Below are positions 17,642 through 22,262 of a stretch of 64,000 nt of DNA, one piece after another (position 1 is the stretch's first letter; each line of letters opens with the position of its first letter). Position numbers and translations under genes: made by a program. The notes beneath the pieces are model-generated. The model was not told where the DNA came from, ran no database searches, and saw only the letters and a program-made list of their open reading frames with translations. The stretch comes from Anaerocolumna aminovalerica (GTDB lineage Bacteria > Bacillota > Clostridia > Lachnospirales > Lachnospiraceae), in NCBI RefSeq assembly GCF_900115365.1, contig NZ_FOWD01000001.1, forward strand, positions 62,001 to 126,000, given 5' to 3'.

Positions 17642-19180
17642 ATGAGCGTATTACATGATGAACAGAATAAAATTATAGCTCCCTTAACCAGAAATCTACA
17701 GGAAAATATTGATGCCGTGGATGTTCTGTTTAAAGATTGGGCTGATATCGTAAAACGAAAGCTGACTGTGGGAGGTAGCAATACAGTAGATATTTATTTT
17801 GTATATGTTGACAACATGGTTGATAAGGCTTTGTTGGAAGAAGATACATTATGGAATCTGATTCACTGGATGGATGATATGCCTGCCGAGAATCAATTTG
17901 ACTATATTAAGGATAAGGCTGTAATATCCGCAGATATTTCTGATGTATATACCTTGCACGAAGCTGTTAAATTTATAATGGGCGGAGATACCATTATATT
18001 TGTGGATGGCTATGATAAGGCACTAAAAGTTTCTAATAGACATATGGAAAACAGAGGTGTGCAAAAGGCAGAAAATGAAGTGGCAGTCAGGGGTTCCAAA
18101 GAAAGCTTTAGTGAGGCTCTTTTTATTAACAGGGTTCTTTTACGCCGCAGAATTAAGGATACAAATCTGAAGATAGTACAGACTACGGTAGGTACCCGAA
18201 CTCAGACAGAAGTGGCAATTGTTTATATAGAAGGAGTTGCAAAGCCGGAAGTGGTAGAAGAAATTCAACGAAGAATCAAAAATTTTGTTGTAGATGGAAT
18301 TTTTGACAGCGGTATGTTGGAACAATTAACAGAGAGAAATGTGTATTCACCATTTCCTGAATTTCAGGCAACGGAACGGCCGGATAAAGCTGCTTCTGGC
18401 CTGGTGGAGGGGAGAGTTGTACTGATAGTGGATAATTCCCCCATGGTACTTTTATTGCCAACCACTATGAATTCTTTTTTCCAGGCCTCCGATGATACTT
18501 ATTCCAGGTGGGAAGTAGCAACGATGATACGAATACTTCGTTTCCTTGGAGCATTTATTACGGTAGCCTTACCTGGACTTTATATAGCTGTGGTGAATTA
18601 TCAGCCAGAGCTTTTATCCTCTGCCTTAGCTCTGTCTTTTGCTGCCGCAAGGGAAGGGGTACCATTCTCTGTAGTATTTGAAGTGATATTAATGGAATTT
18701 GCATTTGAAATGCTGCTAGAGGCGGGAATCAGGCTTCCCGGGCCAATGGGAAGTACTCTTGGAATTGTAGGGGGCCTTGTTATAGGTGATGCGGCAGTCA
18801 GTGCTAATTTAGTAAGTCCTATGGTAGTCATTATTATTGCAATGACTGCTATTTCAGCATTTACAGTACCAAATGAAGCTTTTGCAGCCGCTTTTCGAGT
18901 GATTCGTTATCTAATTATTATATTGTCTGCTTTCTTAGGTTTATATGGCTTTGTGCTTGGGTTTATGATTTTGCTGATTCATCTGGCAGGGTTAAAAAGT
19001 TTTGGAATACCTTACTTACTTCCATTTGCAGCGTCTGGAATGGGAGGAAAGAGCGACGGACGGGATGCTATTATCAGATTCCCGTTAAACAAATTAACAG
19101 ACAGGCCTATTTATGCAAAAGACGATGCAAGAATAAGACTGGTTCGTAATCATGATGAAAAGAAAAAGCAAAAGCAGTAA
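17642..19180 (+). CDS. gerA: spore germination protein GerA/GerKA family (A subunit)
   Basis: The 512-residue A subunit of a nutrient germinant receptor sits in the inner membrane of the dormant spore. The N-terminal cytoplasmic domain (about residues 1-290) includes the family motif DGYDKALKVSNRHMENRGVQKAENEVAVRGSKESFSEAL region (about 120-160). The membrane domain follows, with GLYIAVVNYQPELL and LPGPMGSTLGIVGGLVIGDAAV (about 365-386). The start is ATG 17642 behind AAGGTGATG. It is followed after 65 bases by a fused B+C subunit, so the two genes encode a complete receptor. The germinant is unknown. Confidence 0.92.
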   Translation: MSVLHDEQNKIIAPLTRNLQENIDAVDVLFKDWADIVKRKLTVGGSNTVDIYFVYVDNMVDKALLEEDTLWNLIHWMDDMPAENQFDYIKDKAVISADISDVYTLHEAVKFIMGGDTIIFVDGYDKALKVSNRHMENRGVQKAENEVAVRGSKESFSEALFINRVLLRRRIKDTNLKIVQTTVGTRTQTEVAIVYIEGVAKPEVVEEIQRRIKNFVVDGIFDSGMLEQLTERNVYSPFPEFQATERPDKAASGLVEGRVVLIVDNSPMVLLLPTTMNSFFQASDDTYSRWEVATMIRILRFLGAFITVALPGLYIAVVNYQPELLSSALALSFAAAREGVPFSVVFEVILMEFAFEMLLEAGIRLPGPMGSTLGIVGGLVIGDAAVSANLVSPMVVIIIAMTAISAFTVPNEAFAAAFRVIRYLIIILSAFLGLYGFVLGFMILLIHLAGLKSFGIPYLLPFAASGMGGKSDGRDAIIRFPLNKLTDRPIYAKDDARIRLVRNHDEKKKQKQ

Positions 19181-19245
19181 GTCAGATAAGTTTTATTATA
19201 CTGACTTCTATTTATAAATGGTAGCTGAGAAAGGCATGGTGTAAC

Positions 19246-21474
19246 ATGTTTTCAGATAATGAAAAGATATCCTTAAGACAATTTAAACGAATTATCGTAT
19301 TTGATTTATTCAGTATATCAGGTTTGATCATTCCGAGAATAGCAGTTGAGTTTGCAGGAAGAGACGGATTTAGCGCTATTATTCTTGGAACCATCATTGC
19401 GTTGATATATGCAGCAATTATCATATTAATAACAAAAAAACTCAATGAAAATTTCATGGATTATTCCGTTCATAATGCAGGGCGGTTTATTACCTTTATT
19501 ATTGGGACACTTTATATAATAAAGCTGTTTGCCTGCTGTGTATTTGCCGCCAGATTATTTGGAGAGGTTATTAACGAAACATTGTTGGTGGATACAGATC
19601 CGCGGATTATTATTATTTTGCTTTTATTGATATCTGCTTATGCGGCCTCCAAAGGTTTTGAAGTAAGGGCAAGAATTGTAGAAGTATTATATTTTATTGT
19701 CATCGTGCCGCTATTAATTTTCTTAATATTAGGTCTAAGAGATGCTGATATATCAAATCTCATGCCTATATTTACGGAAAGACCTTTGGATATAGTTAAA
19801 GGCGGTTATGCTGTATTTTTAACCTTCAGTTTACTGGAACTTATCTTATTCACTGCACCTTTCATAGAAGTTAATAAAACCAATGTAAGTAAAGAAAGAA
19901 GTATATTTTCTTATGTAGTGCAAGCTTTGATAATAGGCGGAATAATGGATTTGCTTCTGTTCGTGATTACCGTCGGTATTCTTGGAATGGAGGGAACAAA
20001 AGAAAAGATTTGGTCAACTTTTTCCATCATTCAATTAATTAAACTGCCTGGCGGAGTTATTCAAAGACATGATGCTTTGATTATATCCTTATGGATGTTT
20101 AGTATATTTACAATAATCAGTGGATTCATCTATTACATCAGTTATATATCCAAGAAGATATTTCATGTCTCCACACAGAATTATTTAATTATACCAATAA
20201 TTTTACTTGTCTTTGGAGCTTCAGTAATACCTATGGATGTAGAAAAAAATTATGAGTATTTTGGAAAATACATGATGTTTATAGGAATTCCTCAATCCAT
20301 CCTGTTACCTTTATTTATACTTTTAATCGGTAAATTAAGAAAAATAAGTAATGCCAAAGCAGTAGCAAGATCGGTTCTTATCCTGGCAACCTTATTTACA
20401 ACCCTATCTTTGACCGGCTGCGGAGATATGACGGAGATTGAGGATAGAAATTTTGTTCAGGCTATGGGAATTGATCTGGAGGGTGAGGAAATTAAGGTTT
20501 ATTATGTTATGCCGGATTTGGAAGCAATAACTGGACAGTCTACAAAAGATTCAGAGAAGCTGCTTATTGAACTAAAAGGTAAGGATTTTTTTGAAATAGA
20601 AGAAAAGTATCAATTGCAATCATCAAAACGTCTGGATTTTAGGCATATAAAAGCTATTGTGCTTGGTAAAGATATGGCAGTAAATAGCAAGGAATTAGAC
20701 AAATTGCTGTTTTATATTGAAAATAAATATGAACTGGCAAGAAATACTTTAGTTTTTTTAGGAGAAACAGATGCAAAAGAGATTATTTCGCTAAATAGCA
20801 GCGTTTCTGGTGGAATCGGCCAATATCTTGAACGGCTTTACCGGATTAATCTTATTAATATTGGTAAAAAAGAAGTAAGCATAGGAGATTTAATATATGG
20901 GAAAAACAGTGATAATCTTATAATTAAGGTACCTATTTTGAAACCCCATGAAAAATCTGTTGAAAATATTGGACTGGCAGTATTTAATAAAAGTAAATTA
21001 GTGCATGAATTAAGTGAGAAAGAATCGGATTATATTAATATAGCCAGCGGATACGGGAAAAATATCCGCATATATATTAATGACGAGGAAGAGAAAGAAC
21101 CGGAATATGTGGTCAGAATCATCAATGTTTCCAGAAGTGCAGAATTCTTCTGGGATAATGGCATACCTAGGATGACTTTTAAAGTTAGTGGAAGTGGTTT
21201 GGTAGAAAAGGGCATTAAAGATACAGCGAATAATTATCCAGCTGCTAATGACAAACATATTCATGAAATTCAAAATCTGTGTAATAAGCAAATCACGGAG
21301 AAAATCACGAAATTATTTGATAATATTATGAAAGAAAAAAATATAGACATTATTAACCTTTATCGTATGACCAGTCACAAGAATAAGAATATGTGGCTTG
21401 AGTATGAGGAAAAGACAGAACAGTTCATTCAGGATTTGGAATATACAGTTGAGGCAGATATAAAGTTAAAGTAA
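19246..21474 (+). CDS. fused spore germination permease GerAB and lipoprotein GerAC
   Basis: The 742-residue single frame combines two receptor subunits that are normally separate genes. Residues 1 to about 365 are a GerAB-type permease of the amino acid transporter superfamily (about ten helices). Residues about 372-391 are an additional hydrophobic helix ending in lipobox L389-T-G-C392, followed by GDMTEIEDRNFVQAMGID, the standard start of a mature GerAC lipoprotein; the rest is a GerAC domain ending near VEADIKLK. No stop or internal start with a ribosome binding site separates the parts. With both termini of a ten-helix GerAB in the cytosol, the extra helix would place the GerAC part outside. 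The lipobox could be cleaved to release it, or act as an uncleaved helix. Confidence 0.88.
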   Translation: MFSDNEKISLRQFKRIIVFDLFSISGLIIPRIAVEFAGRDGFSAIILGTIIALIYAAIIILITKKLNENFMDYSVHNAGRFITFIIGTLYIIKLFACCVFAARLFGEVINETLLVDTDPRIIIILLLLISAYAASKGFEVRARIVEVLYFIVIVPLLIFLILGLRDADISNLMPIFTERPLDIVKGGYAVFLTFSLLELILFTAPFIEVNKTNVSKERSIFSYVVQALIIGGIMDLLLFVITVGILGMEGTKEKIWSTFSIIQLIKLPGGVIQRHDALIISLWMFSIFTIISGFIYYISYISKKIFHVSTQNYLIIPIILLVFGASVIPMDVEKNYEYFGKYMMFIGIPQSILLPLFILLIGKLRKISNAKAVARSVLILATLFTTLSLTGCGDMTEIEDRNFVQAMGIDLEGEEIKVYYVMPDLEAITGQSTKDSEKLLIELKGKDFFEIEEKYQLQSSKRLDFRHIKAIVLGKDMAVNSKELDKLLFYIENKYELARNTLVFLGETDAKEIISLNSSVSGGIGQYLERLYRINLINIGKKEVSIGDLIYGKNSDNLIIKVPILKPHEKSVENIGLAVFNKSKLVHELSEKESDYINIASGYGKNIRIYINDEEEKEPEYVVRIINVSRSAEFFWDNGIPRMTFKVSGSGLVEKGIKDTANNYPAANDKHIHEIQNLCNKQITEKITKLFDNIMKEKNIDIINLYRMTSHKNKNMWLEYEEKTEQFIQDLEYTVEADIKLK

Positions 21475-21549: not shown

Positions 21550-21623
21550 GATTTATTGTATAATAATGGTACGTATTCTTACAGATGAGTAAAGAACGGA
21601 CATCAATATTGGAGGTAAGGAGT

Positions 21624-22262
21624 ATGAAGTTTAAATATATAGATATGGAAAGCTGGAACCGGAAAGATCATTTCCATTTTTTTAGCCAATTTAGTTATCC
21701 TCATTTTAATATTTGTGCTAATCTGGATATTACGAATTATTTTAAGTATATAAAAGAGCATGATATTCCTTTTTTTCTGTCTATGACGTATCTAGCCAGT
21801 AAAACAGCAAATGGAATTCCGGAATTCCGACAGAGAATAAGAGAGGGTAAAGTGATAGAACATGAGATTGTTAAACCAGCCTTTACGGTTATGACTGAAA
21901 GCAAATTATTCAGCTTTTGTACTACTGATTACATAGATGATTTTTCCATGTTTAAGGACTGTGCTATGGAAGCTATGGAAAAAGTGAAGAATAATATTAT
22001 TATTGAAGACGAGCCTGGTGAGGATGATTTATTGTATATTACCAGTATACCTTGGATTTCATTTACCAGTATGGAACATCCGATACAGATGAATCCGGTG
22101 GACAGTATCCCAAGGCTTACTTGGGGCAAGTACTTTGAAGAGAACGGCAGAATGAAGCTTCCTTTCTCAGTACAGATGCATCATGCATTGGCAGATGGAT
22201 TGCATGTAGGGGAATATTACAATATGCTGCAAGAAATATTGGAAGATCCTGATTTTATTTGA
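21624..22262 (+). CDS. chloramphenicol acetyltransferase-like protein (CatA fold)
   Basis: The 212-residue CoA-dependent acyltransferase is of the trimeric CAT family. It opens with MKFKYIDMESWNRKDHFHFF, a standard CAT N-terminus, and carries the active-site signature Q-M-H-H-A-L-A-D-G-L-H with catalytic His at residues 186-187. It may acetylate chloramphenicol or another hydroxylated acceptor. Leu replaces the usual Phe/Tyr in DG[FY]H, as in many chromosomal CAT homologues, so resistance is not certain. The start is ATG 21624 behind GGAGGTAAGGAG; the longer frame to 21585 lacks support. Confidence 0.83.
   Translation: MKFKYIDMESWNRKDHFHFFSQFSYPHFNICANLDITNYFKYIKEHDIPFFLSMTYLASKTANGIPEFRQRIREGKVIEHEIVKPAFTVMTESKLFSFCTTDYIDDFSMFKDCAMEAMEKVKNNIIIEDEPGEDDLLYITSIPWISFTSMEHPIQMNPVDSIPRLTWGKYFEENGRMKLPFSVQMHHALADGLHVGEYYNMLQEILEDPDFI

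Follow-up and report, generated by a model that had tools for sequence, protein, structure and literature searches.

Receptors of the GerA type are normally built from separate subunits, among them GerAB, a membrane protein with both ends in the cytoplasm, and GerAC, a lipoprotein of the outer surface. In Anaerocolumna aminovalerica the two are encoded by a single gene, and this locus raises the question of how one polypeptide can provide both. The gene is located in the window, by which we mean the whole analysed stretch of 64,000 nucleotides (contig NZ_FOWD01000001.1, positions 62,001 to 126,000); coordinates below are window positions, and all features of the locus lie on the plus strand. 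Judging from sequence, the gene product is probably a receptor polyprotein that is lipidated by Lgt and cut by LspA before Cys392, supplying the B and C subunits in a 1:1 ratio.

The fused gerAB-gerAC gene (19246..21474, +) is one open frame with an ATG start and zero internal stops. It comprises 742 codons plus stop and encodes a predicted precursor of 742 amino acids and 84.4 kDa. The gene lies downstream of gerAA (17642..19180, +), the first gene of a presumed operon, with a gap of 65 bases between the end of gerAA at 19180 and the fused start. The receptor A subunit encoded by gerAA has 512 residues and matches Pfam GerA (PF03323) at residues 29-489 with an E-value of 4.8e-167. With gerA, gerB and gerC found together, the locus has the composition of a GerA-type receptor operon. 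The profiles GerA, Spore_permease (GerAB) and Spore_GerAC have one match each genome-wide, all at the 17642-21474 locus, so that any Ger-type receptor used by the strain is this one. Directly 3' of the fused gene we observed a gene of the chloramphenicol acetyltransferase family (PF00302; window 21585-22262).

According to the original prediction, a single 742-codon frame joins a GerAB-like permease to a complete GerAC-like lipoprotein, and the open reading frame, Pfam and NCBIfam agree in this. The GerAB part (residues 1-366; 19246..20343, +) has an APC-type permease fold, as indicated by TIGR00912, the AlphaFold2 helices and Foldseek. TIGR00912 (endospore germination permease family) covers residues 6-366 with 172.2 bits, over the cut-off of 139.55, and Spore_permease (PF03845) covers residues 7-330 with an E-value of 2.3e-45 and 155.3 bits (cut-off 23.4). 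Both a family match over the curated cut-off and an APC-superfamily fold, the marks of a GerA-type receptor B subunit, are thus present. The junction (residues 367-391; 20344..20418, +) contains an n-region, a hydrophobic signal helix (AlphaFold2 helix 370-388) and the lipobox residues L-T-G read from the sequence. It is followed by the lipobox cysteine Cys392 (TGC; 20419..20421, +), at which Lgt is predicted to attach lipid and with which mature GerAC would begin once LspA has cut.

The remainder is GerAC. Its N-terminal domain (residues 394-557; 20425..20916, +) matches Pfam PF25198 (Spore_GerAC_N; E 5e-29, 101.8 bits against a cut-off of 27), and its C-terminal domain (residues 576-741; 20971..21468, +) matches PF05504 (Spore_GerAC; E 5.8e-19, 69.3 bits against 23.6). 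The latter domain also shares in a profile match to the GerBC crystal structure 3n54, which runs across profile positions 393-721. TIGR02887 aligns at residues 377-741 over nearly its whole profile and reaches 160.7 bits, 2.55 under its cut-off of 163.25. Spore_GerAC domains over the curated cut-off, together with a GerBC fold, identify this part as a GerA-type receptor C subunit. Unlike a typical C subunit, it is not encoded on its own with a lipoprotein signal peptide at the N-terminus; the signal helix and lipobox are internal, at about residues 371-392.

The AlphaFold2 model of the window protein (mean pLDDT 82.5, pTM 0.51) places the helix 370-388 before a low-confidence junction (residues 389-396, pLDDT <50), after which GerAC begins. 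Searched with Foldseek, the whole protein finds GerBC (3n54) at rank 1 with a TM-score of 0.70 by target, APC transporters coming next; the GerAB part finds AdiC, ApcT, 6f34 and 5oqt with probability 1.00. Of these, the transporter entries 6f34 and 5oqt were also matched by profile search (E about 7e-4), while single-sequence search at E 0.01 found no relative of solved structure.

At the junction, a positive stretch from K363 to R375 leads into a short hydrophobic helix and L-T-G-C392, the sequence reading ...GKLRKISNAKAVARSVLILATLFTTLSLTG-C392-GDMTEIED with the Cys codon TGC at 20419-20421. K371 and R375 supply the charges of the n-region, and the spacing of 16 residues from R375 to C392 equals the median of 78 fusions. 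The hydrophobic helix and L-T-G-C392 had been pointed out at the outset; they prove to be a preserved lipoprotein signal helix and not an arbitrary hydrophobic link, with lipobox residues and helix length resembling those of free GerAC.

Next, we examined how widely the fused frame occurs. In 11 of 15 genomes of the same genus (Anaerocolumna, Lachnospiraceae), the window's own counted, a full-length match in one open frame was found; evidently the frame is real and kept. The ten matches besides the window's own are 47-56% identical, and five of the eleven fused genomes are single-contig assemblies. One further genome (G009) has a partial fused gene that meets a contig end and is without the TM9-TM10 stretch, and a match to the fused gene is absent from G007 (75% complete) and G014 (81% complete). 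In G003, the fused gene is broken within GerAC. This genome, Anaerocolumna sedimenticola NZ_CP048000 (L014/L017/L102), is complete; the break lies at about residue 544 and the junction is intact.

Named close relatives are mostly Anaerocolumna as well, and strains MB42-C2 and AGMB13025 of this genus have the fusion in their genomes. In the family sample, at least 86 of 397 genomes gave a match, single-frame and two-gene forms counted together. Samples of the order, class and phylum (392, 391 and 398 genomes) contain fusions in further families, the occurrences being lower bounds, with few candidates scored per genome.

The set of fused proteins was assembled from stop-to-stop frames of the fetched loci, scored with profiles from the two halves of alignment A1. 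Eighty-five distinct frames matched both halves; 83 were left after removal of two truncated copies (L002, L017), and L165, which fell outside the GerAC profile match, was added by eye to make 84. The Cys counts omit L002, L017 and exact duplicates and, among free GerAC, the downstream fragment of the broken L014. Three incomplete genes were kept among the 84: L157, identical in protein to L068 and interrupted within GerAB; L014, interrupted within GerAC; and L015, which a contig end cuts off. The 84 distinct fused proteins come from six coded families (f1, f5, f16, f64, f101 and f127), three of them (L105, L106, L107) from named records only; the loci are a non-random sample, from which a fusion frequency is not derivable. 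At a number of loci, both fused ones of about 500-620 aa (e.g. L022, L023, L056, L065) and separate ones (e.g. L034, L036), GerAC is short and little is matched beyond its N-terminal domain; some members of the family can apparently do without the C-terminal domain.

The fusion is not a single case: 84 fusions were collected, and parsimony on the GerAB tree points to many gains or losses of the fused state. A quick tree of GerAB domains, with 83 fused rows among 189, requires a minimum of 28 fused/separate changes, gain and loss not being distinguishable in such counts; 17 changes fall on branches with SH-aLRT of at least 95. Shuffling the labels gave a mean of 43 changes and a minimum of 33. 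L068, the upstream piece of a broken fusion, was not counted as separate in the 28 and 17, and L114, which runs off its contig, was; its removal could lower each tree count by at most 1. Fused and separate rows of the tree set number 54 and 39 in family f1, 19 and 3 in f5 (one of the 3 being a piece of a broken fusion) and 3 and 6 in f64. A single fused clade was rejected (p-AU 1.2e-11) when all 28 fused rows of a hand-picked subset of 56 rows were forced together.

Stop readthrough was considered for separate pairs as well. In 15 of them B and C share one frame with a single stop between, a set enriched by deliberate fetching of long open frames; several have an ATG or a possible TTG at or soon after the stop, and the idea was rejected in favour of ordinary separate genes. 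At another locus (L136, in genome G291), the order is reversed: a gerC-like gene immediately precedes gerB, only one stop separates the two within a shared frame, and the GerAC encoded there is without the lipobox Cys.

Conservation of the lipobox Cys in other GerAB-GerAC proteins had been proposed as a check of the junction, and the answer is affirmative. The Cys is present in 78 of 84 fusions; among 100 distinct free GerAC ORFs taken at these loci, 96 have it, so that the two groups do not differ (Fisher p 0.52; L029, L121, L136 and L151 are the free ones without it). The loci were selected independently of Cys, though the search profile A1 contains it. In a first alignment of 26 fused proteins, 11 of the 885 columns were invariant, that of C392 among them. 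When the 564 columns in which 60 or more of the 84 rows are filled are ranked, it comes 6th, tied with three others at 78/84, and the next-best Cys column reaches 33%. The Cys codon varies in the fusions (48 TGC, 30 TGT), which indicates that selection, and not recent common ancestry alone, maintains the residue.

The surroundings of the cysteine are those of a lipoprotein, too. In 77 of 78 cases the residue at -1 is G, A or S; the one deviation (L091) comes from an off-by-one pick in C-G-C. The stretch leading up to the Cys, free of charged and strongly polar residues, has a median of 16 residues in fusions versus 14 in free GerAC and is signal-peptide-like. The lipobox of the fusions is therefore constrained as in a free lipoprotein, and we show that, at the level of sequence, the internal lipobox is kept as strictly as the terminal one, through repeated fusions. 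The window's genome contains two LspA-like and two Lgt-like matches over the cut-off (L231, L232, L234, L235); one LspA-like match has a stop within the matched stretch.

The topology, lipidation, cleavage and stoichiometric benefit that we infer for the window protein would be as follows. GerAB would insert by ten helices with its C-terminus in the cytoplasm. From the predicted helices and the established topology, the GerAC signal helix would form the next, outward crossing, and GerAC would be exposed on the outside of the inner membrane of the spore. Lgt would add diacylglycerol to Cys392, and LspA would cut between Gly391 and Cys392. The first product (residues 1-391, 43.9 kDa) would be GerAB with the spent signal helix as its eleventh helix, and the second (residues 392-742, 40.5 kDa without lipid) a lipid-anchored GerAC. 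B and C would be made 1:1 and already adjacent, before assembly with GerAA, the benefit being equal amounts and immediate proximity of the two.

Published work bears on several of these steps. According to excerpts of a review, the B. subtilis C subunit is acylated by GerF (Lgt), and loss of gerF impairs or slows nutrient germination (PMC11841064). The same excerpts suggest that acylation may shield C subunits from LspA, which counts against cleavage, and that GerK is little affected by Cys loss (PMC11841064). In the portions available of another paper, GerAB is required for stability of A and C, and contacts of GerAC with GerAB and GerAA are predicted from co-variation (PMC8617281).

A conserved Cys calls for no more than lipidation; cleavage usually follows and is here predicted at an internal site. 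The low model confidence at the junction and the topology of one fusion, L085, also weigh against the proposed processing. If Lgt modified Cys392 and LspA stayed idle there, a single chain with an eleventh helix and a lipid would result, and the conserved Cys would be accounted for equally well. Fusions that have lost the Cys, described below, suggest that a joined chain is tolerated. We nevertheless regard such a lipidated, uncut protein as rather unlikely: the helix is no longer than that of an ordinary signal peptide, a small residue at -1, found in nearly all fusions, is usually read as a protease-side constraint, and LspA is encoded in the genome.

The Cys-less fusions differ from most others at the end of GerAB. 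Helices from the start of TM8 to GerAC were counted with a simple hydropathy window and odd cases were mended by eye, since this procedure missed one helix of four in L030, L033, L125, L212 and L224 and hit TM8 twice in L019, L015 and L086. In 73 fusions TM9, TM10 and a further helix follow, and the Cys is kept in 73 of 73. Ten fusions have a single helix after TM8; the Cys is kept in four of them (L015, L087, L129, L153) and lost in six (L086, L088, L090, L147, L148 and L150, from genomes G195, G028, G352, G231, G253 and G322), so that all losses fall in this class (Fisher p 6e-7 for ten single-helix vs 73 three-helix fusions, independence being overstated by related rows). Cys-less fusions occur in at least two places of the GerAB tree. 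The AlphaFold2 model of one, L090, has TM8, then one helix (297-332) at pLDDT <50, then GerAC.

The original prediction had also offered an eleventh helix as an uncleaved tether; in that case the lipobox would be a relic. For the six Cys-less relatives, 6 of 84 fusions, this is the likelier fate, and the low-confidence single helix in the L090 model is in keeping with it. As an explanation of the window gene we find it improbable, since a relic would decay, yet every fusion with a full GerAB end retains the Cys across repeated fusions. Judged from their sequences, the six suggest that a receptor could function with B and C joined for good as well; since they lack the Cys, separation of B and C is not essential everywhere.

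The number of predicted crossings after TM8 is odd in 83 of 84 fusions, which, given the usual GerAB start, places GerAC outside in these 83. The exception is L085 (genome G720), with two helices after TM8, the Cys kept and, in its junction, a GTG with a ribosome-site-like motif; it may make two overlapping in-frame products. A strict parity rule is broken by this case, and the altered cases represent perhaps six independent changes, so that the pattern is suggestive only.

Such start codons raise another explanation, namely that GerAC is also made alone from a start within the junction. A few relatives have a GTG, TTG or ATG together with a ribosome-site-like motif there, L085 and L007 being the most convincing. 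In the window gene, by contrast, no in-frame ATG or GTG occurs between M344 and C392; the sole in-frame TTG of this stretch is codon 389, within the lipobox and too late for a signal peptide. Rare start codons (e.g. CTG, ATT) are present and could conceivably be used. Among the ribosome-site motifs searched for in this stretch one AGGA only was found, at codon 345, and the other two frames contain many stops there. For the window gene we consider an internal start very improbable. An artefact of sequencing or assembly joining two genes, for which the frame break of G003 could be cited as a sign that the locus can be broken, is ruled out, practically with certainty, by recurrence: the genus alone has the fusion in 11 of 15 genomes, including five single-contig assemblies, and the whole set comprises 84 proteins.

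Cleavage at the internal lipobox remains our preferred reading for the window protein. More widely, it may be, on a roughly balanced judgement, that spore-formers have repeatedly made B and C as a polyprotein matured at the internal lipobox by Lgt and LspA, with the B:C ratio fixed by translation. A few lineages would then have joined the two permanently by a rebuilt GerAB end, with one helix after TM8 and the Cys gone, GerAC still being outside.

The locus shares with the GerA receptors of B. subtilis (GerAA, GerAB, GerAC) the three subunits, the order A-B-C, a B subunit of APC fold and a lipobox-bearing C subunit of GerBC fold. There the subunits are three proteins, whereas here a single polypeptide comprises B and C and its lipobox is internal. 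A parallel to such an arrangement is the cytochrome b/c1 polyprotein encoded by Bradyrhizobium fbcH, which is cut post-translationally into two subunits of one complex. In both cases a polytopic membrane protein comes first and is continued by the signal peptide that belongs to its partner on the outer face; a haem protein and signal peptidase I are involved in fbcH, a lipobox and probably signal peptidase II here.

Rearrangement of Ger subunit genes is documented in clostridia. The sections available of a study of C. botulinum describe ger clusters gerABCB, gerCA with divergent gerB, and gerACxBBB (PMC5083711). Such clusters resemble our locus in that subunit genes are freely rearranged and differ from it in that the order or number of separate genes is altered; the words "fused" and "fusion" have zero occurrences in the text seen of that paper. 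In the excerpts of PMC8617281, the heteromeric amino-acid transporters SLC7/SLC3 are likened to GerAB/GerAC. There too an APC-fold transporter has an outer-face partner as a cap, but the chains are separate, while here they are one gene product.

In the published literature searched, with most subscription journals beyond its reach, we found no report of a GerAB-GerAC fusion, nor anything of use on internal lipoboxes or on fbcH. The fusion is a new, recurrent variant of GerA-type receptors. To our knowledge, cleavage at an internal lipobox lies beyond the known repertoire of signal peptidase II; if true, the internal cut would extend the known activity of this enzyme.

The finding also matters for annotation, since a search for a separate gerAC can overlook a fused gene. 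A 2026 study, in the parts accessible, left gerAC undetected in Anaerostipes species (PMC12888040), and this non-detection could be owing to fusion.

For the receptor itself, assembly is debated, a pentamer or a hexamer of A-B-C trimers being discussed in the review excerpts (PMC11841064), and crystal structures are stated, in the portion available of a further paper, to cover the C subunit and the hydrophilic domain of A only (PMC13170314). A natural B-C fusion offers a covalently fixed pair for structural work, and it is independent evidence for a 1:1 pair of B and C within one protomer.
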